DNA of 64,000 nucleotides, from contig VFZE01000006.1 in assembly GCA_016871315.1 (NCBI GenBank), positions 62,001-126,000 on the forward strand, written 5' to 3'. The notes under the pieces were generated by a model. It saw only the letters and a program-made list of their open reading frames with translations. It did not search any database and was not told where the DNA came from. How positions within the stretch are numbered: position 1 is the first letter of the stretch; every line of letters starts with the position of its first letter. Positions 7,575 through 52,129 of this stretch are shown here, piece by piece. This DNA comes from Acidimicrobiia bacterium (GTDB lineage Bacteria > Acidobacteriota > Terriglobia > Bryobacterales > Bryobacteraceae). The translations under genes were made by a program, and so were the position numbers.

Positions 7575-9392
7575 ATGCGGCGAATCCTTCTCGCGATTCT
7601 GGCCTGCATGGCCGTTCCTGCGCAGGAGCGTGATCCTTCCCATGAACGCGTGGTGGTGGACCGCGGCTCCGGCTCTACCATGAAGCCGCTGGTGCACGGG
7701 GCGCGCTACGCGGCGGCTTCGATGGCGCACCAGGCCACGCAGGCGGCCGACCGCATGCTTGCCGCCGGCGGCAACGCCTTTGATGCGATCGTCGCTGGGC
7801 AGGCTGTGCTCGGGCTGGTTGCGCCCGCATCCAACGGGATTGGCGGTGACGCGGTGCTGCTGGTTTACAGCGCGGCGGATAAGAAGGCGTGGTCGATCAA
7901 CGCCGAAGGAGCTGCGCCGAAGCTGGCAACGGTTGATTGGTACAAGCAGAACCACAACGGAAAATTGCCGGTGAACGACACGCTGCTCTCGGGCACCGTG
8001 CCCGGCGTCATCGACGCCTGGTACATTCTGTTGTCGCGCTGGGGCACCAAGAGTTTCGCCGAAGTGCTCGCGCCGGCCATCGATCTGGCCGAGAACGGGT
8101 ATCCGCTCAGCCGCCGCTACGCGCGCTCCTTCGCCGACCGCGGTCTGGTGAAATATCCATCCAGCGCCGAATTGTACCGGCCGGGCGGAAAGGACTGGGA
8201 GGAAGGGGAAGTATTTCAGAACCGGCAACTGGCGCAGACGCTGCGCCGGCTGGTAGAGGCGGAAAAGGCCACCGTGGGGCAGGGCAGGCAGGCCGCGCTG
8301 AAGGCGGCTCGCGACCGTTTCTACAAAGGCGACATCGCGCGAACGATGGGCGAATTCTCCGAAAAGAACGGCGGACTGTTCCGCTACGAGGATTTTGCCG
8401 CCTATAGCGCGGAGGCGGAAGAACCTGTCTCGGTTGACTATCGCGGCTACCAGGTCTACAAGAACCCATCCGCTTCGCAAGGTCCGGCCGAGTTGTTCGC
8501 GTTGAACATACTGGAAGGCTACGACCTGAAGGGCATGGGCCACAATTCGGCCGACTACATTCACGTCTCCGCCGAGGCGATGAAGCTGGCCATGGCCGAC
8601 CGCGAAAAATATCTCGGCGACAGGAAGTTCATCGAAATTCCCTACGCGGGTCTGTTGTCCAAAGAGTACGCCGCCGAGCGGAGAAAGCTGATCGACATGC
8701 GGCGCGCCTCGCGCGAGTTCCGCGCCGGCGAGCCGGAACGCTTCATGAACATCCCGCCGCTTCACCGCCCGGTGGAGGTGAACATCTCCGGCAACGCCGA
8801 TCATGAAGGCGGCACCAGCTACATCACCGTCGTCGACCAGCACCGCAATGCGATCACCTTCACGCCGAGCCTCCACAGCGGTTTCGGGACAAAGCTGGTG
8901 ATCGCCGATCTCGGCTTCAGCATCAACTGCCGCGGCGACTACTATTCGCTGAAGGAAGGCCACGCCAATCAACTGGGACCCGGCCGCAGGCCGCGCTCCA
9001 CGCTGCAAGGCACGCTGGTGATGAAGGACGGCAAGCCATTCCTGGTGACCGGCTCGCCCGGCGGCGACGACCAGTGCATGCGCACGATGCAGACGTTGCT
9101 CAACATGGTGGAGTTCGGCATGGATGTCCAGCAGGCGATTGAAGCGCCGCGCTGGTCGACGCGCAGCTTCCCGGCATCACCGTTCCCTCACACCATGTAC
9201 CCCGGCGATTTGCAGCTCGAAGGCCGCATTGCACCGGAGGTGCGGCACGCCTTGGTTGAGCGTGGCCACTCGGTATGGGTGCGTGGGCCGTGGTCGATGA
9301 ATCAAAGCGCGGGAATTCGGGTTGACCCGGCGCGTAATACGTTGTCAGCCGGCGCCGACCCGCGAACCGGGGCTCAGGCGACGGCCTGGTAG
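7575..9392 (+). CDS. ggt: Gamma-glutamyltransferase family protein
   Basis: A 605-residue Ntn-hydrolase precursor, probably periplasmic, that would transfer or hydrolyse gamma-glutamyl groups such as those of glutathione. The ATG at 7575 (MRRILLAILACMAVPAQE) gives a signal peptide. Upstream starts would overlap the glycosylase gene. The large-subunit region shows ASMAHQATQAADRMLAAGGN and the glycine-rich PASNGIGGDAV. The expected autoprocessing and catalytic Thr is Thr414 in EGGTSYITVVD. The oxyanion/substrate loop TGSPGGDDQ follows. The motif is EGGTSY, not the Escherichia-type HTTH, so substrate range may differ from classic enzymes. Convergent with the DinB gene. Confidence 0.87.
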   Translation: MRRILLAILACMAVPAQERDPSHERVVVDRGSGSTMKPLVHGARYAAASMAHQATQAADRMLAAGGNAFDAIVAGQAVLGLVAPASNGIGGDAVLLVYSAADKKAWSINAEGAAPKLATVDWYKQNHNGKLPVNDTLLSGTVPGVIDAWYILLSRWGTKSFAEVLAPAIDLAENGYPLSRRYARSFADRGLVKYPSSAELYRPGGKDWEEGEVFQNRQLAQTLRRLVEAEKATVGQGRQAALKAARDRFYKGDIARTMGEFSEKNGGLFRYEDFAAYSAEAEEPVSVDYRGYQVYKNPSASQGPAELFALNILEGYDLKGMGHNSADYIHVSAEAMKLAMADREKYLGDRKFIEIPYAGLLSKEYAAERRKLIDMRRASREFRAGEPERFMNIPPLHRPVEVNISGNADHEGGTSYITVVDQHRNAITFTPSLHSGFGTKLVIADLGFSINCRGDYYSLKEGHANQLGPGRRPRSTLQGTLVMKDGKPFLVTGSPGGDDQCMRTMQTLLNMVEFGMDVQQAIEAPRWSTRSFPASPFPHTMYPGDLQLEGRIAPEVRHALVERGHSVWVRGPWSMNQSAGIRVDPARNTLSAGADPRTGAQATAW

Positions 9393-41160: not shown

Positions 41161-41691
41161 TCACCGGTTGAGCCGCAGCGTCTTGATGAAATTATCGAAC
41201 CGCACGTTGGCCACCGAAACCGCATCCATCATCGTGTCGTCGATTTCATCAGGCGCCTTCTGGTCCTGCGCTGGCGATCCATAGCCCAGCTGTGAAGTCG
41301 TGGCGCGCAAACGGTCGGCCAGGAATACCGCGATTGCGAGGTAGAAACGGCTGGCGAAGGCGGCATCGGCGGCGAGCTTTGCCTTGAGCCGCTCGCGATC
41401 GACAGCCAGCACGTGCGATGCCTCCATTGTTTGGACGGTGGCCGACGGCGGGCGCGCGTCGACGAAGGAGATCTCGCCCACGATCTCCCCGCTGAGCAGC
41501 GTCGCCACGCGCGCGCCGTTCGACCGCTTCACCTCCAGGCCCCCCTCCAGCACGAGAAACAACGACCCGACCGGCTCTCCTTCGCGGATCAAGACCGTGC
41601 CCGGCTCCAGGTACTGCTTCTCGCCGTTGCGCGCCAGCCAGTCGATATCGGTCTCCTCCAGCACGCCGAACAGGTACAGAACTTTTCTCAT
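41161..41691 (-). CDS. Cyclic nucleotide-binding-domain protein, possibly degenerate
   Basis: A 176-residue protein (ATG at 41691 with AAGGAAG upstream). It has a cNMP/CRP-type beta-roll: YLEPGTVLIREGEPVGSLFLVLEGGLEVKR, then SGEIVGEISFVDARPPSATVQ. The phosphate-binding cassette has the Gly-Glu pair, but Pro-Pro-Ser replaces the usual P-R, so the Arg that holds the cyclic phosphate is missing and ligand binding is doubtful. No helix-turn-helix follows; the C-terminal 50 residues are helical. It ends the peptide-export gene set and may be a structural or regulatory partner of the ABC proteins. Confidence 0.8.
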   Translation of the reverse strand: MRKVLYLFGVLEETDIDWLARNGEKQYLEPGTVLIREGEPVGSLFLVLEGGLEVKRSNGARVATLLSGEIVGEISFVDARPPSATVQTMEASHVLAVDRERLKAKLAADAAFASRFYLAIAVFLADRLRATTSQLGYGSPAQDQKAPDEIDDTMMDAVSVANVRFDNFIKTLRLNR

Positions 41692-41713
41692 CGGTGCACT
41701 TCCTTTTTCCTCA

Positions 41714-44293
41714 TCAGGCAATCTGCCGCCGGGCCAGCGCGGCGAATGCTCCACCGGCCGCCATCAGTTCCGAGTAGGTGCCGGACTCGGCAATCCGGCC
41801 TCCTTCCAGCACAAAGATCCGGTCCGCGTTGAGGATGGTGCTCAACCGGTGCGCGATCACGATCCGCGTCGCTTGCAGGCTTTCCAGGCTGCGGCTCACG
41901 ATCTCCTGCGTACGGTTGTCCAGCGCGCTGGTGGCTTCGTCGAAGATCAGAATCCGCGGCCGGTGCACGATCGCGCGCGCGATCAGCAGCCGCTGCCGCT
42001 GCCCGCCGGACAGGCCCGCGGTTTCCGCGATCACCGTGTGCATCCCCATCGGCATGGTTTTCAGATCCTCGTCCAGCCCCGCCATCCGCGCCGCTTCCCA
42101 AGCGTCCTCGATGGTCAGGTTCGACGAGCCGACAATGTTTGAGAAAATGTCGCCGGTGATCAGCCGGCTGTTCTGAAGCACGACGCCCATCTGCCGGCGC
42201 ACGGCCTGCAAGTCCAGCCCGGCCAGGTTGTGCCGGTCGAAGTAGATGGCGCCGCTTTCCGGCTTCTCAAAGCCCAGCAGCAGCCGCATCAGCGTCGATT
42301 TGCCGCAGCCGCTCTCACCCACGAACGCGACAAACTCACCCGGCTCGATCCGCAACGAAATATCGTGCAGCACCAGCGGCGCCGGTGGCGCGTAGCGGAA
42401 CGCCACATGCTGCACCTCGACTGCGCCGCTAAGCACGCCCGGGTCGCCGGCGCCGCCCGGCACCTCGGGCAGCGTCTCCAGAATCGGCTTGGCGCGCTCA
42501 TAGGTGGGCACGATGTTCACCACTTGCAGCACCGTCCCGCTTAAAGCCAGCGCGGCGCCCAGGAACTGCCCGAACGCGGCGTTGAAGGCAAGGAACTGGC
42601 CGGTTGTCATCGCATCGGCCCCCGGCTGGGCCATCGCCCGCGCCGCGAAATAGAAGATCGCCGCCGTGGTCGCGGTCGGGAAAATCGTATCGAACACGGC
42701 GAAGCGGTTGGTGATCGCGCCCGCCTGAAAGGCCAGCCGCTTGTAGTGTGAGTAATCCTTCGACCAGGCGGCAAAGGCGCGGCTCTCGGCTCCCGACAGG
42801 CGGAACTTCGCCACGCCGCTGATCAGCTCAAACACTACCCCCGACAGCTTGCCGTCCACCTCCGCCAGCTCCCGCACGACGCGCATGCGCAGGCGCGAGG
42901 CGGCAACTGTTGTCGCGATCGCAATCACGACGGCCACAATCGCCACCGGCACAAGTTGCGGCCCGTAGTAGAACAGGAGCCCGAAGCTGAAGACCGAAAA
43001 CACGCCCGAGACCAGCGACGACAGCGCCGATCCGGTCAGCGTGCGCCGGATCTCGCTCACGGCCATGCTGCGCGATGCCAGGTCGCCGGAGGAATAATCG
43101 CGGAAGAACGGAACGGGCAGCGCCAGCAGACGGTCCCACACCGCCGCTTGCACGCGCGCGTCCATCTTACCTTCCATGCGCAGGAAGGCGAGATTGCGAG
43201 TGACGGTGAACAGCGCCGTCGAAAGGGCCACCAGCAAGAGAAAGCCGCCGATCGGCAGCAGCAGCCCGCGCTCGGCGCCGGGGATCACCGAATCAAACAG
43301 CTCTCCGGTGGCGATCGGCGTCGCCATCGCGATCATGCCGCTGAGCATCCCGGCGATCAGAATCGCCGCCAGATCGCCGCGCGCGGCTTCCAGCCCGAAC
43401 CGGAACACATCCATCGCCGACAGGCTCTTTTGCGGAAACGGCCGGTAGAAGCAATAGGCCACACCGCTCAGCGTCGGGGCCAGCTTTGCGTCCACCGGCT
43501 CCGCGCTGCCGCTCGACGGATCCAGCGCCTGATAGCGGTTGCCCGATTGCGGAACCAGCGCCAGCGGCCGGTTGCCGGCCTCGGCAAAGGCCAGCAGCGG
43601 TCCGTTATCCTGTTTCCACCACGCGCCGCGCAGCACCGTCCTGCGGTAGCGGATGCCCGATGCGCGGGCGATGGCCGCCACCGGATCCAACGCCTGCCCC
43701 GAGGGGCGCTTCAGCGTGATTCCCTGCGCCTCCGCCACGCGTTGCATCGCGGCGTACAGTGCGTCGGAAAGCGCGGCGGCAACGGTCTGGCCCGCTTCCT
43801 TGTGCAGCGGAGAAGCGAGGCTGCGCAGTGACTGGTCAAACGATCTCCGCTCCATCTCCGCCTTCGCGCGCAGCCGCCGCTCCCGTTCGACCTCCTCCTG
43901 CCCGGCAGAGTCCACGGCCAGCCGCAGCGCCTCTGATTGCCACAGCCGGAAGTCGCCGGGCTCTCCGTCGCGCGCGGCAAGCTCAGGCAGCCGCGCCGCC
44001 ATCATTCTTTTCCACGCGTCTACTTCCGGAACTCCAGCCGCTGCCTCAATCCGCGTCAGACGTGTCTGCTCTCCGGCCACTGCCACGACGCGCCGGCCCC
44101 CGCCCGCCTCAGGCGGAAAGGCGAATACCGTCCGGCCCGCCTCCACGCGCAGCAGATGAACACGCGCGCCCACAGGTTCCTCTCCTTCCATCTCCACCAG
44201 GAAAAGGTCCAGCGCGCCTTCCTCAATCTTCCACGCGCAATCCTCCCCATGAAGCGGGAACGGGCGGCCGGGCTGGAGGATTTCCGGCTTCAT
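41714..44293 (-). CDS. NHLM-type peptide export ABC transporter, second permease/ATPase subunit
   Basis: An 859-residue protein. A long N-terminal cytosolic region (about 300 residues, no C39 motif) is followed by a six-helix ABC exporter domain and an ATPase domain with Walker [11 protein letters not shown], signature [15 protein letters not shown] and Walker [12 protein letters not shown]. The architecture matches the NHLM bacteriocin system ABC transporter permease/ATP-binding protein (TIGR03797-like), which pairs with a peptidase-containing ABC protein. Its start overlaps the stop of that gene (44290-44293). It likely forms part of a heteromeric exporter of Gly-Gly leader peptides. Confidence 0.88.
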
Positions 44294-46437
44294 ACGCTTT
44301 GAATGAGCCGCGAGTAAGGCCCATCCACCTGGTTCATCTCCTCATGCGTGCCGCGCTGAACCACAACGCCCTTCTCCAGCACGATGATCTCGTCGCAATC
44401 GCGGATCGTCGAAAGCCGGTGCGCGACGATCAGGCAGGTGCAGCCGCGCCGCCGCAGGTTCTCCATGAAGCGCTCCTCGGTGCGCGCGTCCAGCGCGCTG
44501 GTCGCTTCATCGAGAATCAGAATGCGCGGCTCAATGGCCAGCGCGCGCGCGATCTCCAGCCGCTGCCGCTGACCGCCGGAGAGATTGCGCCCGCCCTCCT
44601 GCAGCGTGTAGCCGTAGTCGCTGTTCATCTTGGTGATGTCGTCGTGGATCACCGCGTCGCGCGCCGCCTCAATCACGCGGTCTTCACCGATCGTCTCATC
44701 CCACAGCACGATGTTCTCCCGCACCGTGCCGCCGAACAGGAACACGTCCTGATCCACCATTGATAGCGAGTTGGTGATCGTCTCGCGCGGCAGCTCCCGC
44801 CGGCGCTTGCCGTCAAACAGGATCTCGCCCGACCACGGTTCATACAGCCCCGCCACCAGCTTCGCCACCGTCGATTTGCCGCTGCCCGACCCGCCCACCA
44901 GCGCAACCCGCTGCCCGGGCTTCACCACCAGGCTGAAATTCGAAATCAGCGGCGCCTCCAGACGGCTGTAGCCGAACGTCAGCTCACGCACCTCCAGATG
45001 CCCTTGCAGCCGCACAAAGGCGTCAGGCGCAGTGACGCGTTCGGCCACCATCTCATCGGTCTTGTAATTCAGAACATCGTCCAGCCGGTTCAGGTCCCCT
45101 TCAATCTGCTGCACGCGGGAACCCATCTCCACCAGCCGGTTCACCGGCTCAATGAAACGGTCAGCCAGGCTCTGAAAAGCGATCAGCATGCCCATCGTCA
45201 GCAATCCGTCCATCACGCGAAGCCCGCCCAGCGTCAGCACCGCCGCGCTGTTGAAGGCGGTGAGAAACGCGGGCAACACACTGACCCACATCGAGCCGGC
45301 GACAAGATCCTGCTGCGCGTTGAGCACCTTTGCCTGATGGCCGGCCCATCGGCTGAAGAAGTCCGATTCCGAGCCGGTCGATTTCAGCGTCTCGATGATC
45401 TGCAAGCCGTTCATCGAAACGCCCATCAGCTTGCCGGCCTCCAGTAGCAGCCGCTGATTGTCCTCCTTCCTGCGCCGGGATATGAAACGCAACACCGCGA
45501 AATTGCACAACGCCACGCCGATGCTGAGCATGGTCAGCGTCGCGTCATAGCAAAACATCAGCGCCGCGAAAAAGCCGATCAGCCCGATGTTGACCAGGTT
45601 GCGCGCCAGCTCGCCCGATAGCAGTTCCGCGACACGATCATTGGCCTCCACCCTGGAGCCGATCTCGCCCGCGTAGCGCTGCCCGAAAAACTCCATCGGC
45701 AGCCGCAGCACGTGCCAGAAGAAGCGCGACGCCGCGCTGATGCTCAGCCTTGACTCCAGCCGCTGCAGGCCGTTCGATTGCAGCGACACCAGCGCCGCTT
45801 CCAGAATCGCCGTTACCGCCATCGCCACCAGCAGCGGGCGCAGCCAGCTCTCCATGCCGCCGATGAGAGAATTATCGACGAAGATTTTCGAAAAGATCGG
45901 GATCACCAGCCCCGGCACGGCCAGCGCCAGCGTCGCCAGCACCACGTAGCTCAGCGCCAGCCGGCTTCCCGGCAGCCGCCTGGCCAGCAATCCCAGAAAG
46001 CTACGCTTCTCGCCGCCTTTTTGAAACTCCGCCGTCGGCTCGAAAGTCAGCACCACGCCGGTGAAGGATTGGTCGAACTCCTCCACGGTCACCGTCCGCC
46101 GCCCGGGGCCGGGGTCGTTGAGAAACACCTTACCCTTGCCGAACCCCTCCACCACCACGAAATGGTTGAAGTTCCAGAAGACGATGCAGGGCATGCGCAT
46201 CGTCCGCAAATCGGCGGGCTCCTTCTTGAAGCCCTTGCAGGCCAGCCCGTAGAGCCGCGCCGCCTTCATGACGTTGCTGGCTTTGGAACCGTCGCGGCTG
46301 ACCCCGCAATCCACCCGCAGTTTTTCCAAGGGCACGATGCGCCCGTAGTAGGCAAGGATCATCGCCAGCGATGCGGCGCCGCATTCCACCGCCTCCATCT
46401 GGCGCACGGTGGGAGTCCTTACGCGCGCGTTCCTCAT
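44290..46437 (-). CDS. NHLM-type C39 peptidase/permease/ATPase exporter
   Basis: A 715-residue bacteriocin-type exporter. The N-terminal C39 peptidase has Gln13 and Cys19 ([21 protein letters not shown]), His92 ([12 protein letters not shown]) and Asp108 (FLNDPG), so it should be active in cutting after Gly-Gly leaders. A transmembrane domain (about 160-430) follows, then an ATPase domain with [25 protein letters not shown] and [12 protein letters not shown]. It matches the NHLM peptidase/permease/ATPase family (TIGR03796-like). The adjacent NHLP leader peptide and the Gly-Gly peptide at 51920 are the obvious substrates. It overlaps the next ABC gene by 4 bp and follows the HlyD adaptor by 1 bp. 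Confidence 0.93.
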
Positions 46438-46438
46438 C

Positions 46439-47692
46439 TCAACTCAGACCCAGGGAGCCTTTCACCGAAGGGAACAGCAGCGTGATGGGAGCCTGCTCGC
46501 GCGTCACCACCGTGCCCACGCACAGCGTGCCGCTCGACAGCGTCACCGGCGGCCCGGCCGGCGATGACCAGCGGAACCCGCTCACGCTGGCGGGGTCCGT
46601 TTCAATCTCCACGCGCACTTCGTTCACCGGCCCGAGCCGCGTAAGCTGATCCACCAAGCTTTCGTTTTCGAAATTGCGCATCAGGGCGGCGCGTGTGGCC
46701 GGATAGTCCGCCACAAACACGATCCGCCCTTTCAGGTAGCCGTACTCCTCGCGCTTCACGGTGGAGGGCGAAATCTGGACCTCCATGCCAGCCGCGGCAT
46801 CCTTGGCCTTGTCCGCGGGCAAGTACATCAGCACTTCCAGCTTGTCGGAGGTGGACTGTATGCTCAGAAGCGGCGTTCCGATCGCCAGCATCGTCCCCGG
46901 ATGCACCTGCACTTCCAGCACCTCGCCTTCATATGGGCTGATGACTTCGGAGGCCAGCGCCAGCTCCTTGCGCAGCGCCGCCGCGCTGCGTTCCAGCGAT
47001 GCAATGCGCGCGTCCAACTCCGCCGCCAACTCGCCCGGCTGCGTCTCGGTGGCGAACAGCTGCGCGGCAAGCTGCTTCAACAGCGCCTGCTTGTCCTGTA
47101 TCTGCGCGTTCAGCGCGACGATCTTCTGCTGCGTGGCGATCACCTGCTGCCTGGTGATCAGCCCCTTGGCCAGCAACTGCTCCTCCACCGGCACCTGTTC
47201 GGAGGCCAGCCGCACCTGCTCGCGCAGCTCCTTGATCTCGCGCTCGGCGTTGGCCTGCTGGCGCCGGATCGACTCGATCTGAAGTTGGGAGGCATCGGAA
47301 CGCACGCCAACGGCCCGCTTTTTCTCCAGCCGCGCCTCGGCCAGCGTCTGATGCGCCATGCGGATTCTCTCAAGCAGCGAAGGCTGGGCGATGGTCGCCA
47401 CTACTTGTCCGCGCTCGATCCGGTCGCCCACCTTCACCTTCAGGCTCGACACCACGCCGGTTCCCGGAGCCACGATATTCAGCACCCCGCCTGTCCGCAC
47501 GATGATCCCCTCGCCGGCCACGGTCGTGCGCACCGTGCCGCGGACCGACCACCAGCCCGCGGCGCCGAGCATCAGCAGGATCGCAAGCAGCGCCAGCCAG
47601 TGCCGCGGCCGCGTCACGCGCAGCAGTTGGTCCAGCTGTTCCGGAGAAGAAAGCCGCTCCAGCGCTACCGCACGGAATATCTTCTTATTCAT
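46439..47692 (-). CDS. NHLM secretion adaptor, HlyD family
   Basis: A 417-residue membrane-fusion protein. The ATG at 47692 ([14 protein letters not shown]) is preferred because the longer frame runs antisense-like through the leader-peptide gene. One membrane helix ([18 protein letters not shown], 31-48) is followed by a lipoyl/barrel half ([40 protein letters not shown]), a long helical hairpin (about 110-260) and the returning lipoyl half ([19 protein letters not shown]). The [12 protein letters not shown] motif before the helix is typical of NHLM HlyD proteins. It bridges the ABC exporter to an outer-membrane channel, probably the TolC homologue at 49041. Confidence 0.9.
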
Positions 47693-47708: not shown

Positions 47709-48065
47709 CTATTTGCCGCGCTCCAGCCATGCCAGCCACGCCGCTTGGCCCGCGTCGGCGTTTGGGTCCCATTCGATCCGCGGCTGCATGGGATCGCCGC
47801 CGGTCCCCCCGGCCACTTGCGCCAGGTCGGCTTCGGACAGTTCGCTCTCCGGCAGCGCGGGTTCCGGAAGGACAATCGTCATGTTGTAGCCTTCGCTTTC
47901 TATAAACCGTGCGCGGAACCCATCAGGAACCGGCAAATCCGATACCTGGGCGATCGCCTTGCGCGCATTCACCAGGCACAGCTTGCGGAACTCCGGATCC
48001 ACGCTGCTGCGGCGTATGATTTCATTCAAGGTCTTGCGTAGGGTATCTTGAGTCCATTTGGGCAT
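47709..48065 (-). CDS. NHLP-type precursor peptide (nitrile-hydratase-like leader, Gly-Gly site)
   Basis: A 118-residue peptide precursor. Residues 1-87 form the long leader related to nitrile hydratase alpha subunits: TLNEIIRRSSVDPEFRKLCLVNARKAI, then VPDGFRARFIES and a LPEPALPESELSEADLAQVAGG ending. Cleavage by the C39 exporter should follow Gly86-Gly87. The predicted 31-residue core (88-118) is rich in Trp, Asp and Ala (WDPNADAGQAAWLAWLERGK at its end). It has one Thr and no Cys or Ser, which excludes thioether or azole chemistry on Cys. A second Gly-Gly (89-90) could be an alternative site. First gene of the export cassette, 16 bp before hlyD. Confidence 0.88.
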   Translation of the reverse strand: MPKWTQDTLRKTLNEIIRRSSVDPEFRKLCLVNARKAIAQVSDLPVPDGFRARFIESEGYNMTIVLPEPALPESELSEADLAQVAGGTGGDPMQPRIEWDPNADAGQAAWLAWLERGK

Positions 48066-48173: not shown

Positions 48174-48953
48174 CTATATTCCCCAGTTCCGCGGTGGCTG
48201 CAGATGGCAAACCACCAGCGCATCCTCCTTTTCCTGGATCACGGCGGGCAGGCTCATCCAGCATTGGCGCAACTGCCCCACCCAGCTCCGCACGCGTTTG
48301 CGGAAATCGCGCGGGTCGCGCCAGCCGGTTACGCCGAGCCGTTCACCCAGTCCGCCCCGGCCGAAATATTCCACGCGAACGTAACGGTCGGGCCGGACGC
48401 GATAGGCGCGCTCGGTGAGCCAGACGTAGAAATCCAGCGTCGAAGGAGAATCGGTGAGAGCCTGCACGACGCCGAGTTCCAGCGGCAGATAGTTGGCGCT
48501 GACGTAATCCCAAAACGGGCCGGAAAGCTTGATCCGGTTCAGCTCGTCCGTCTCGCGGTCGAACCAAAGCTCGGCGTCTTCGCACAGCCTGCCGGTGATC
48601 GCCAGCGGCCCCATCACGAACGAGAACCTCGTGTGCAGGACGCGGTTCAGCCGGTCCCGCCACCGCGCATAGTTTCTGCCCGACGGCGGAAGCCCGAACA
48701 GCCGCAGCATCTGATAGGCGGCCGGCAGCGTGACATGAGGCGTCCGCTGCCGCACCGCCGCCGTCGCCAGAAGAATGAGAACCAGCCTGTCCTGCCCGTA
48801 CGGCAGTCCGTGCCGCGGATGCGGTTGCAACCGGAACTCGGCATCGCCCCAGTGGCGCACCCAGTCCTGGCCGGGATTCTCCGGGGGACGCACGGGCAGC
48901 CACGCCGCCGGATGGGGGCGCAGGCCGAAGAGGAACTGTCCCTGTCGATTCAT
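48174..48953 (-). CDS. Plasmid RepA-type replication initiator homologue
   Basis: A 259-residue protein resembling the Plasmid encoded RepA family (PF04796). Family-like segments in order: HPRHGLPYGQDRLVLILLATAAV, QMLRLFGLPPSGRNYARWRDRLNRVL, ELWFDRETDELNRIKLSGPFWDYV, LPLELGVVQALTDSPSTLDFYVWLTERAY and WRDPRDFRKRVRSWVGQLRQCW, consistent with tandem winged helices. Three ATG codons are stacked at 48959-48951. The third (48953) is best spaced from GGGGAGA. It sits upstream of the NHLP operon on the same strand and 87 bp from the divergent tolC. Iterons, a partitioning system and an integrase were not seen, so it may be a domesticated gene, for example a DNA-binding regulator. Confidence 0.75.
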   Translation of the reverse strand: MNRQGQFLFGLRPHPAAWLPVRPPENPGQDWVRHWGDAEFRLQPHPRHGLPYGQDRLVLILLATAAVRQRTPHVTLPAAYQMLRLFGLPPSGRNYARWRDRLNRVLHTRFSFVMGPLAITGRLCEDAELWFDRETDELNRIKLSGPFWDYVSANYLPLELGVVQALTDSPSTLDFYVWLTERAYRVRPDRYVRVEYFGRGGLGERLGVTGWRDPRDFRKRVRSWVGQLRQCWMSLPAVIQEKEDALVVCHLQPPRNWGI

Positions 48954-49040
48954 CATCATTCTCCCCGCGAATTCATCATGTTATCGGAGTTTCCCCCTTA
49001 CAATGGAATGCGGAATCGTAACATCCATCGGGAGGCACGT

Positions 49041-50561
49041 GTGCACAGATTGCGGATTCTGGTTCTGATGTGTGCGGGGGCGGCAACCGCGGCGGCGCAG
49101 ACAGCCGGCGGACTCACGCTCGCAAAGGCGATCGACTCCACCCTGTCGCTCCATCCGCTGCTCGGCGTCAGCCGCCAGCAGGTGGCGCTGCGGCAAGGCA
49201 TCCGCAGGGAGGTCTCCGGCGCCTTTGACCGTCTCTATCAAAGCGGAGGCCGGCAGAGTTACTCGCACGCGCCGGCGCTCGATAGCTCCCTCCGTTTTCG
49301 CAACGACGGGGTCAACTCCACTTCCGTCGACGGCGCCGCCATGAAGCTCTACCGCAACGGCGTCACCGCTGGCCCCACCGCCGTCGTGTCGCGGACACGC
49401 AGCCCTTTGCTCACGCCCGACGGGCTCAACCTGTCGCGGATGGCCTTCGAGGTGAGTGTTCCGCTGCGGCGCAACGCCGCCACGCAGGTCATCGCACGCG
49501 AAAACTCCGCAACGCAGGAAGTGGACGCGGCGCGCTTTGACCTCAATCAGACCGCCGCCAACTTGCTGGCGGAAACCGCCGTGCGCTATTGGGAGCTGCG
49601 CGGCGCACTGCTGCTGCTGGACGTCTTCCTCGGCTCGGAGCGCCGCGGCGAGACGTTCCTCGAAATGACGCAAACTCTCATCCAGGCCGAGCGCATCCCG
49701 CGCAACGACATCAACCTGGTCCGCGCCAACCTTGCCGGCCGCACCGCCACGCGCATCGAGTCCGAACAGGCCGTCATCGCCGCGCGCCAAGCCCTCGCCT
49801 ACGCCATGGGCTTGGTTCCCGAAGAAATGCAGCGGCTCGCCGATCCGGCAGCCGATCTGCCCGAATCCGCCTCCATCCCCGGTGAGGACGCCATCCGCGC
49901 CTACGTCAGCAGGGCGCTCGCCCGCCGCACCGACTATCAGGCCGCGCAGCGCCGCGTCGCCGCCGCTCGCGCGCTGGTGCCCGGCGCCGAAAATCAGACA
50001 AGGCCCAGTATCGACGTTGTCCTCTCGTCCGGCTACAGCGGTCTCCGCGCCGGCGCCGCTCCCACCAGCACGCTCGCCTCGCTGTTCCGCGGCGTCGGCG
50101 GAGCCGATGCCATCGCCAGCCTCCGCTACGAATTCGCTCCCGCCAACAACACCGCCCTCGGTCGCCTCGCGCAGGTGACGGCCACCGTCCGCCAGGCCGA
50201 ATTGCAGGCCTCCGATCTGGCCCGTTCGATTACCGCGGACGTGAATGTGGCCGGTCAGGCGGTCCGCAACGCCGCCCTGCGCACCGAGCGCGCCCGCGAA
50301 TCGGTCGCCGCCTTTCAGGATGCCCTCGCCGCCGAGCGCGACAAATACACCCTCGGCTTCGGCTCGCTCGTCGACATTCTCACCACGGAAGACCGCCTCA
50401 CGCAGGCGCTGGTCTTGCAGGTCCGGGCGCAAATCGACTATGCTCAGGCGCTTGCTGATCTCCGTCAAGCCACCGGCACTATCCTGGAGCCGGATGCGGA
50501 CTTGACCACCCTGGTTGGCGCCAATCTGGAACGCGATTTCCGCTCGGCGCCGAAGCCGTAG
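49041..50561 (+). CDS. TolC-family outer-membrane efflux protein
   Basis: A 506-residue outer-membrane channel. The GTG at 49041 is chosen because GGGAGG lies five bases upstream and a signal peptide follows (HRLRILVLMCAGAATAAAQT). The much longer upstream frame is antisense to RepA. The OEP pattern is repeated: LTLAKAIDSTLSLHPLLGVSRQQVALRQG at the start, then helical repeats with TAVRYWELRGALLLLDVF, QALAYAMGLVPEE, RTDYQAAQRRVAAARAL and DKYTLGFGSLVDILTTEDRLTQA. It should complete a type I-like secretion route with the HlyD and NHLM ABC proteins on the opposite strand. Confidence 0.88.
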   Translation: MHRLRILVLMCAGAATAAAQTAGGLTLAKAIDSTLSLHPLLGVSRQQVALRQGIRREVSGAFDRLYQSGGRQSYSHAPALDSSLRFRNDGVNSTSVDGAAMKLYRNGVTAGPTAVVSRTRSPLLTPDGLNLSRMAFEVSVPLRRNAATQVIARENSATQEVDAARFDLNQTAANLLAETAVRYWELRGALLLLDVFLGSERRGETFLEMTQTLIQAERIPRNDINLVRANLAGRTATRIESEQAVIAARQALAYAMGLVPEEMQRLADPAADLPESASIPGEDAIRAYVSRALARRTDYQAAQRRVAAARALVPGAENQTRPSIDVVLSSGYSGLRAGAAPTSTLASLFRGVGGADAIASLRYEFAPANNTALGRLAQVTATVRQAELQASDLARSITADVNVAGQAVRNAALRTERARESVAAFQDALAAERDKYTLGFGSLVDILTTEDRLTQALVLQVRAQIDYAQALADLRQATGTILEPDADLTTLVGANLERDFRSAPKP

Positions 50562-50781: not shown

Positions 50782-51852
50782 GTGCTACGAGAAATGATGC
50801 GCCACGGCGCCAATTCGGATTGGATACGCCAGATGCTGGGCCAAGCTCCGCCGGTCGAGATCACCTCCGACTGCACCAACTGCGTGATGGTCAAGCCGGA
50901 GGGCGAATCCATCGGAGCACAGTTCTATTTTGACCCTGACGTTCGTTGCTGCACCTATGAGCCGGCGCTGCCTAACTACATCGCCGGTCGCATTCTCCGC
51001 GACAGTGACCCGGAACGCGCCGCCGGCCGCGCATCGCTTGAGGCCCGCATGGCCCGCCGCGTCGACACTCTTCCCTGGGGAATCCGCCGGTCCAAGCGCT
51101 TCGACACTCTGTACGGCAGTAACGCCGCCCTGTTCGGCCGCGCCGCCGATTTGGGTTGCCCGCACCTAACGGAGGGCAGTCTGGGTTGCGGTATTTGGCC
51201 GTACAGGCCCGGAGTCTGCTCCACTTGGTATTGCAAACACGACCGCGGACAGACCGGCCATGCTTTCTGGAACAACCTCGCCCTGCTGCTGCGCGAAGTC
51301 GAGCTGATGATGGGCGCCTGGTGCGTGGCCGAGTTGCACGGCGGCCGCGCGGCGATGAGGCAGGCTTTGAATCCGGAAGCCGGAATCCCGGTCAGTTCCG
51401 ATCTCGGCGGAGAGATGGATGAGAAGGAATACGGCAAGCTTTGGGGCAACTGGGCCGGCAAGGAGGCGGAGTTTTTCCAAGCCTGCGCGGCGAAGATGGA
51501 TGACATCCGATGGGAGGACGTCGAGCGTATTGGAGGTGTCCGGATGCGGACCATGGCTGACCTCACACGCACCGCCTTTGAAAAGCTCCTCGACATGGAC
51601 GTGCCACAACGCCTTCAAGCTGGCCCGTTCCGCATCCTTGCCTCCTCGCGCGGCAAGCGGACCGTGGAAACCTACAGCGGCTTTAACCCGATTAAGATGC
51701 CCGAGGCGCTGTTCCGAGCATTGCCTTACTTCGACGGGCGGCCCACCGCAGAATCCATTGCGGAAATCCGCACCAAGGAAAAGCTCAGGCTGCAACCGGC
51801 TCTTGTCCGTCGCCTGGCCGATTTCGGAATTCTGGAAGAGATAGACACTTAG
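50782..51852 (+). CDS. YkgJ-type cysteine-cluster protein with C-terminal winged-helix/PqqD-like segment
   Basis: A 356-residue soluble protein. Its N-terminal half has the eight-cysteine YkgJ-like pattern: Cys31 and Cys34 (SDCTNC), Cys56-Cys57 (RCCTYE), Cys126, Cys136, Cys146 and Cys151 (LGCGIWPYRPGVCSTWYC), which should bind zinc or an Fe-S cluster. The C-terminal about 55 residues (PEALFRALPYFDGRPTAESI, then LRLQPALVRRLADFGILEEI) have the rhythm of PqqD/RRE-like winged helices that bind leader peptides. It lies 67 bp upstream of a Gly-Gly leader peptide, so it may recognise or modify that peptide. The YkgJ assignment is motif-based; the RRE reading is inference. Confidence 0.75.
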   Translation: MLREMMRHGANSDWIRQMLGQAPPVEITSDCTNCVMVKPEGESIGAQFYFDPDVRCCTYEPALPNYIAGRILRDSDPERAAGRASLEARMARRVDTLPWGIRRSKRFDTLYGSNAALFGRAADLGCPHLTEGSLGCGIWPYRPGVCSTWYCKHDRGQTGHAFWNNLALLLREVELMMGAWCVAELHGGRAAMRQALNPEAGIPVSSDLGGEMDEKEYGKLWGNWAGKEAEFFQACAAKMDDIRWEDVERIGGVRMRTMADLTRTAFEKLLDMDVPQRLQAGPFRILASSRGKRTVETYSGFNPIKMPEALFRALPYFDGRPTAESIAEIRTKEKLRLQPALVRRLADFGILEEIDT

Positions 51853-51866
51853 GCACGGACTTCAGC

Positions 51867-51887
51867 ATGAATGAAGAGAAACCCTAG
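51867..51887 (+). other. Six-codon mini-ORF copying the leader start
   Basis: ATG-AAT-GAA-GAG-AAA-CCC-TAG encodes MNEEKP and stops. The true peptide 53 bp downstream begins MSEEKPKEQ. The resemblance suggests a partial duplication of the peptide's start in which the seventh codon became a stop, or a small upstream ORF affecting translation. Context before each ATG is also alike (CAGC versus CAAC). Confidence 0.4.
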
Positions 51888-51919
51888 CAGGACACCAACA
51901 ACAGAGAAAGGAAATCAAC

Positions 51920-52129
51920 ATGAGCGAAGAAAAACCCAAGGAACAGGAAGAACAGGAATTAGGCCAGGAAGATCTGGAGAACGTCTCCGGAGGAATCCTG
52001 ATCGGGCTGAACCAGGCTGCCCAGAAGGTGCGCCTGGACCCGGCTGCTCCCTCTCCTAAACAACCTGATACATCCAGCAAGCTTGGTTTTGACATCATCA
52101 AAACTACCTATCAACCCCCCCCCTTTTGA
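51920..52129 (+). CDS. Double-glycine leader peptide, putative secreted peptide precursor
   Basis: A 69-residue peptide with a GAAAGGAAA ribosome site. The acidic leader (MSEEKPKEQEEQELGQEDLE) ends in ENVSGG, the typical ELxxVxGG pattern cut by C39 peptidases after Gly24-Gly25. The predicted 44-residue core starts ILIGLNQAAQKVRLDP and ends KTTYQPPPF. It has no Cys, but several Thr, Ser, Lys and Pro. The likely exporter is the C39/NHLM system at 41-48 kb. The gene ends in a C9 tract followed by T4 (52112-52125), so single-base slippage would change the C-terminus. It sits right behind the YkgJ-type gene. Activity is unknown. Confidence 0.75.
   Translation: MSEEKPKEQEEQELGQEDLENVSGGILIGLNQAAQKVRLDPAAPSPKQPDTSSKLGFDIIKTTYQPPPF

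Follow-up and report, generated by a model that had tools for sequence, protein, structure and literature searches.

The closest described counterparts of the protein reported here are RiPP enzymes in which an RRE is fused to a larger domain (TigE, TbtB, McbB, MccB, LynD/TruD and ThcOx), together with the stand-alone RREs TbiB1 and PqqD. According to structure prediction, the eight-Cys protein described below would share the fused architecture of the former and its residues 272-356 are predicted to fold like the latter, but its partner domain is none of those found in the known RRE enzymes. A second group for comparison is formed by the NHLM/NHLP systems (TIGR03793-03797), of which the window, i.e. 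the whole 64-kb stretch of DNA analysed, has the ABC1, ABC2, HlyD and cNMP proteins as well as an NHLP-type precursor, whereas the window proteins scanned include no YcaO, LanM, radical SAM or nitrile-hydratase-type enzyme, a place that the eight-Cys protein may fill. YkgJ-like proteins (PF03692) resemble it in the second half of the Cys motif (CPxL...CgIW..R..C), but in place of their CxxCxxCC the first half of the eight-Cys motif reads CxxC ... CC with about 20 residues between, and the eight-Cys protein is much longer and ends in an RRE-type domain. Finally, the flagellin lysine methylase FliB (PMC8598068) is an oxygen-sensitive, SAM-dependent enzyme that acts on a secreted protein, needs a [4Fe-4S] cluster on a Cys motif which its authors compared with PF03692, and has eight conserved Cys, as many as the window family. 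In the literature searched, with a coverage that mostly excludes subscription journals, YkgJ was not found together with leader peptides or lasso peptides, the papers containing YkgJ were, judging by their titles, not about RiPPs, and RiPPs and FliB were co-mentioned only in a paper that is unrelated by its title; neither YkgJ nor PF03692 occurs in the main text of RRE-Finder (PMC7470986) or of a structure-based RRE paper (PMC12710340).

The locus in the window

An earlier note on this DNA had described an eight-Cys YkgJ-like protein 67 bp upstream of a 69-residue precursor with a leader ending in VSGG, and the coordinates (Table 1) proved right: both genes are on the plus strand with the peptide ORF downstream, separated by 67 bp. 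The C39/NHLM exporter, HlyD and TolC that it had placed nearby were confirmed by matches to TIGR03796, TIGR03797, TIGR03794 and PF02321, and as ABC1, ABC2 and HlyD passed the curated cut-offs, the locus qualifies as an NHLM export system. The C39 ABC1 gene lies about 4.3 kb upstream of the eight-Cys gene on the minus strand, with TolC between them on the plus strand. A known RiPP enzyme class, absent from the window according to the same note, was indeed not detected, neither by Pfam scans of 20 further window proteins, which cover YcaO, LanM and radical SAM, nor by tblastn of the 64-kb window with one LanB, one LanC and three LasC queries. What had been overlooked is the NHLP-type precursor, which adjoins the HlyD gene on the minus strand and has a leader ending in LSEADLAQVAGG; therefore, the 69-aa peptide is not the sole possible substrate. 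Between this precursor and TolC we also observed a gene for a RepA_C-like plasmid replication initiator (48174-48959, minus strand; PF04796, 31.7 bits), which may be a trace of a former mobile element.

Table 1. Positions of the eight-Cys gene, the candidate precursors and the export genes in the window.
Feature	Position	Strand	Basis or remark
Eight-Cys YkgJ-like protein gene	50782..51852	+	356 aa, GTG start, C-terminal RRE-type domain (predicted)
Cys-rich N-terminal domain of the eight-Cys protein	50782..51591	+	residues 1-270; conserved-Cys alignment
RRE/PqqD-type C-terminal domain of the eight-Cys protein	51595..51849	+	residues 272-356; predicted fold
69-aa double-glycine precursor gene	51920..52129	+	ORF with double-glycine leader
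Leader of the 69-aa precursor	51920-51994	+	25 residues, ends in VSGG (LGQEDLENVSGG)
Core of the 69-aa precursor	51995-52126	+	contains Lys, no Cys
NHLP-type precursor, second candidate substrate	47709..48065	-	TIGR03793, 41.4 bits, E 9.6e-11; below the curated cut-off of 50.9
NHLM HlyD adaptor	46439..47692	-	TIGR03794, 324 bits
NHLM C39 peptidase/permease/ATPase ABC1	44290..46437	-	TIGR03796, 1100 bits
NHLM permease/ATPase ABC2	41714..44293	-	TIGR03797, 926 bits
Bacteriocin-transport-associated cyclic-nucleotide-binding protein (cNMP)	41161..41694	-	TIGR03896, 159.2 bits; cut-off 161.05
TolC-type outer-membrane channel	49014..50561 (start approximate)	+	PF02321

The eight-Cys protein and its predicted C-terminal fold

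The window protein has 10 Cys in total, eight of which (C31, C34, C56, C57, C126, C136, C146 and C151) were conserved without exception in an alignment of 30 sequences. While this part of the earlier description stood, the YkgJ label turned out to be weak: PF03692 reached 13 bits (E 0.17) with the window protein, short of the Pfam gathering score of 23, and matched 3 of 30 family sequences at E<=0.1, the best with 4.3e-5. Alignment of the Cys domain with PF03692 proteins by hhalign gave a probability of 46% and an E of 2e-4 over 42 columns, confined to the second half of the domain, a likeness that is only suggestive of kinship. A model of the family is absent from Pfam and NCBIfam, the latter giving two single chance-like matches, and PDB sequence searches with the eight-Cys protein returned one chance-like match each. 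In an alignment of 39 rows, six of the eight Cys were found in 39/39 rows and C31 and C34 in 38/39, the one exception (L042) being a row whose start was placed too far downstream, with both Cys present upstream; E26, R142, W163 and W221 were also kept in 39/39 rows. Conservation of C146, T148, C151 and K152 is partly by construction, as the pattern that fetched 34 of the relatives includes them, and relatives found without that pattern also retain C146 and C151. The AlphaFold2 model of the full-length protein had a pLDDT of 85.5; averaged over blocks, the values were 92-98 in residues 271-350 and lower, 57-77, in residues 121-150, within or bordering which lie four of the conserved Cys, and in the VIA comparison of the whole model with known structures no row covered the N-terminal domain convincingly.

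The C-terminal domain modelled alone gave a pLDDT of 90.9 and a pTM of 0.78. Its first ten Foldseek rows were McbBCD, heterocyclase (LynD, TruD), TbiB1 and TigE chains with probabilities of 0.90-1.00 and a best E of 7e-3; at E<=0.001 there was no match, either with the whole model or with the domain alone. In VIA, RiPP proteins made up 22 of the 26 listed rows with Z>=5 for the domain alone, about 11 of them distinct, including TigE (Z 7.7), TbtB (7.5), MccB (7.2), the PbtF RRE (6.5), McbB (6.4) and TbiB1 (6.1), and the other four rows were the Rickettsia lysine methyltransferases PKMT1/PKMT2; PqqD reached 4.8. As all Z values are below 8 (maximum 7.7), which is middling by the scale of the tool and may reflect a common arrangement, the weight of the VIA and Foldseek result rests on the top rows being so alike in kind. 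When the whole model was used, Z 2 was reached by 36 of 858 aligned chains, and the top three were TigE, TbtB and McbB, matched at residues 271-356, followed by ThcOx (153-356); it was thus VIA and the separately modelled domain that gave the RRE signal, whole-model Foldseek having given none at E<=0.001. We take the RiPP rows to match at their RRE and the chains named here LynD and McbB to be these proteins; by their titles, the structure 8t19 names an RRE, and the TbiB1 and 6jx3 entries name the leader. The PqqD family PF05402 matched 0 of 30 family sequences at E<=0.1, and many RREs likewise have no PF05402 sequence match. The last 85 residues or so are therefore predicted to adopt an RRE/PqqD-type fold, in which a small sheet precedes three helices, as the earlier note had proposed. 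Two Bdellovibrionota relatives (L054 and L055) are devoid of this domain, with no RiPP marker near either.

Distribution and genomic context of the family

Eight-Cys proteins are rare but widespread. Including the window's own genome, they were found in 5/150 genomes of the taxonomic family, 5/200 of the order and 5/396 of the phylum, the last count being the same with a single-sequence and with a profile search, and further searches gave 4/68 (phylum of the L040 genome), 4/147 (class of the L031 genome) and 3/247 (class of the L030 genome). With each species represented by a single genome, a scan that used one pattern around C146-K152, and could reach only relatives matching it, yielded 34 relatives with record titles naming Bryobacterales, Chloroflexi, Planctomycetota, Bacteroidetes, Chloracidobacterium, Hydrogenedentota, Gemmatimonas, Nannocystis, an archaeon and others. 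Four stretches of viral contigs matched a search pattern, none of them a relative, and plasmids gave no match. The window, these 34 relatives, L012, L021, L022, L023, L095-L097 and L105-L109 make up 47 distinct loci, among them six closely similar Nannocystis copies.

A RiPP context was found at 15 of the 47 loci, namely double-glycine peptides at 11, lasso genes at three and a C39 exporter with LanC/LanB at one. At the other 32, no marker included in the search was found (double-glycine pattern, C39 ABC, LasC, LanB, LanC); some of these lie on short contigs, and most carry the C-terminal domain. The double-glycine pattern matched 29 times in the 259,170 bases of the 3-kb flanks (28 times when overlapping ORFs are omitted), the NHLP precursor and a spurious L038 match included, compared to 6 matches in 978,128 control bases, and 26 of the 29 were on the strand of the eight-Cys gene. 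Counted by locus, a double-glycine ORF was present within 3 kb at 12/47 loci and in 5/95 control windows, each 7 kb long and taken from a set of 60 stretches of the genomes of the window and its relatives (Fisher p 9e-4, which is post hoc because the pattern was altered several times after seeing examples, its final form being applied alike to test and control). Inspection by eye removed L038 (leaving 11 loci) and found none of the six control matches leader-like. A C39 ABC gene was detected at 7/47 loci, the L109 copy being cut by the contig end, and in 0/60 control stretches, which also lacked LanB and LanC and yielded a single LasC-like match; a C39 peptidase anywhere in the genome is common (21 of 34 relatives' genomes) and of little evidential value. 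The co-occurrence with Gly-Gly peptides and C39 exporters anticipated by the earlier note thus holds in several phyla, for the exporters in part. Relatives without Gly-Gly peptide neighbours, which the same note had named as counter-evidence, were nevertheless seen in part: 36 of the 47 loci lack a genuine double-glycine peptide in their 3-kb flanks, although four of these have lasso or lanthipeptide genes instead.

Linkage to the peptides is tight, with gaps of 35-133 bp in the window, L024, L025, L027 and L031 and a same-strand peptide within about 135 bp or overlapping at six loci (these five and L109). Chance adjacency was rejected, since such linkage recurs in several lineages. L024 has four double-glycine peptides and the window's exporter set, with an ABC1 that is 64% identical, and L025 has three such peptides with HlyD and TolC on the same contig and ABC1, ABC2 and cNMP on another; C39 ABC transporters are also present in L031, L040, L096, L105 and L109. 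At the lasso loci, L108 carries B2, a precursor-like ORF, LasC, B1, the eight-Cys gene and NTP_transf_5 in one run, the eight-Cys ORF overlapping B1 by 17 bp when its longest start is used, L107 has the order LasC, eight-Cys gene, B1, B2, and in L041 LasC is accompanied by B2 and B1 and, on the same strand as the eight-Cys gene, stops 1.85 kb before it. The order in L105 is C39 ABC, eight-Cys gene, LanC, LanB. Three Chloroflexota eight-Cys genes are solitary and flanked by opposite-strand genes. A protein of about 480 aa, which starts with a zinc-ribbon-like motif, is a common opposite-strand neighbour in Chloroflexota relatives (L026 11062-12498, L028 9533-11005, L029 11053-12513), and no precursor was seen there; the stretches examined around the NHLM exporters of the Chloroflexota genomes L070 and L072 and of the short-contig L071 contained no pattern-matching peptide.

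Further observations concern individual loci. In Hydrogenedentota, a second peptide type (KKRVIxLDDLD...VVGGS), which the double-glycine pattern does not match, is encoded upstream of the eight-Cys gene in L037 (889-1221) and L040 (2045-2329), and a sigma-54 activator gene, identified by Pfam for L040 (3660-4721) and by sequence resemblance for L096 (8959-10014) and L037 (2418-3584), lies beside it. An apparent tandem duplication in L106 (8628-9366) comprises the gene of a small Lys/Arg-rich protein, which may be a local partner, and the start of the eight-Cys gene, a short copy of which (8930-9034) directly precedes the intact gene.

In the tree, which omits L012, L036, L047, L049, L056, L057 and L109 (frameshifted, broken, masked or cut) and the intact L022, the window groups with L024, L027 and L025 (support 99/95), all having double-glycine peptides, and the lasso pair L107 and L108 clusters with a support of 100/98. 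The double-glycine association needs 3 changes, a number as low in 156/500 shuffles, and as the deep forks are weak, a single origin and several origins of the association are indistinguishable.

Peptide cores and the proposed role of the eight-Cys protein

A slightly wider double-glycine pattern gave 32 cores within 6 kb of eight-Cys genes. They contain two Cys in total, which speaks against lanthionine or a Cys-derived thiazole as common product. Since the cores almost lack Cys and share a hydrophobic-Lys-hydrophobic motif, Lys is the lead for the modified residue, an assignment that is speculative. A resemblance to the N-terminus of Hcp (FLKLDDIKGES-like) was seen in cores of L037 (4608-4781), L040 (5513-5743, where it is repeated three to four times), L096 (7805-7993) and L024 (12132-12320). 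The cores LLLPAVQAAREAAR (L040 4983-5153) and LLLPAVQKVREA (L096 7544-7723) resemble LLLPAVQxxREA, which we take to be the start of DUF1559 pilin-like proteins, and the window core ILIGLNQAAQKVR is faintly similar to them. Pfam scans of the cores gave Hcp only with an E of 0.3 over 11 residues and no DUF1559, and a PDB search with the cores gave chance-like matches only.

Starting from what was found by computation, namely an RRE-type fold, eight conserved Cys, a place next to precursor genes in several phyla and an exporter in the window, we consider it likely that the eight-Cys protein is a RiPP tailoring factor whose RRE holds the leader while the eight-Cys domain modifies the core for export by the NHLM system. 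The C-terminal RRE would grip a leader encoded close by, in the simplest case that of the 69-aa peptide and possibly that of the NHLP-type precursor, and thereby hold the core against the N-terminal domain, which is probably loaded with metal (Fe-S or Zn) and would carry out the modification; the C39 peptidase of the NHLM system would then cut after Gly-Gly, and HlyD/TolC would carry the product out. This supports the earlier reading of the protein as a candidate for recognising or modifying the peptide and widens it, as the protein looks like being used in more than one RiPP class. A bolder proposal, which we hold tentatively and at somewhat less than even chances, is a class-independent maturase family combining an RRE with an eight-Cys metal domain and a chemistry new to RiPPs, perhaps an Fe-S-dependent modification of Lys in the hydrophobic-Lys-hydrophobic motif; alongside double-glycine peptides and C39 exporters its members would be the only maturase, whereas in lasso and lanthipeptide clusters they would supplement the other enzymes with a further tailoring step.

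Alternatively, the protein might bind the leader via its RRE without being an enzyme, as an escort, chaperone or immunity/regulatory partner that hands the peptide on to the exporter or another enzyme. Stand-alone RREs have such an escort function, the eight Cys could be structural, and L105, L107 and L108 have other RiPP enzymes able to do the chemistry. Pfam scans, however, found no other RiPP enzyme near the gene in the window (the 20 proteins mentioned above) or among the eight neighbours scanned in L024 (5 proteins) and L025 (3 proteins), therefore an escort would serve the exporter only at these loci, and the strict conservation of the Cys and of E26, R142, W163 and W221 resembles that of an active site more than that of a simple scaffold; we regard this alternative as unlikely.

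A specific form of the tailoring reading, for which the chances appear rather slim, is a FliB-like [4Fe-4S], SAM-dependent lysine N-methyltransferase acting on core Lys. The cluster, the PF03692-like Cys motif and the eight conserved Cys of FliB (PMC8598068) would fit, as would the cores: Lys is present in 30/32, hydrophobic-Lys-[LIV] occurs 19 times (4.2 in shuffles) and [YF]xK[LIV] 10 times (0.8 in shuffles), with 0/1000 shuffles as high in either case, although within-locus paralogues inflate these counts, which are not independent, and the Lys fraction is not higher in cores than in leaders (0.108 vs 0.146). Membership in the FliB family was rejected, as profile comparison with 10 FliB-like proteins found no relationship (probability 0.7%, E 0.087), and NF038110 (FliB) had no match in 30 family sequences at E<=0.1. 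The same FliB-like set clearly matched the PF03692 proteins (98%, 2e-13; helped by L187, which is FliB-like by eye), unlike the Cys domain with its likeness limited to the second half. We know of no RRE reported for FliB, which may serve as a chemical model and a lead.

A general role in protein modification or metal handling, in which the C-terminal domain would bind other proteins and the precursor adjacency would be incidental in some lineages, is improbable. The 32 loci without markers would agree with it, and Nannocystis, Chloroflexota and others keep the gene without a visible precursor; precursors can, however, be encoded elsewhere, and the lasso operons, the position between C39 and LanC/LanB and the tight same-strand double-glycine linkage in several phyla are hard to obtain by chance. 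That the NHLP-type precursor is the substrate matured and the 69-aa peptide is exported unmodified seems very improbable, for although the two leaders end alike (LSEADLAQVAGG and LGQEDLENVSGG) and the NHLP gene adjoins HlyD, L024 and L025 have double-glycine peptides, HlyD and TolC but no NHLP match by tblastn at E<=1e-4, and the double-glycine peptides are therefore the shared partner.

RiPP clusters are usually recognised by a known catalytic family, whereas the tell-tale here is a leader-binding-type domain on a Cys-rich protein; as Pfam and NCBIfam do not recognise the family, enzyme-based mining tools could miss such clusters. The arrangement of only two genes, for the eight-Cys protein and the 69-aa peptide, makes testing simple. 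If the eight-Cys protein is an enzyme, it would bring a further catalytic domain to RiPPs and give an uncharacterised branch of YkgJ-like proteins its first testable role.
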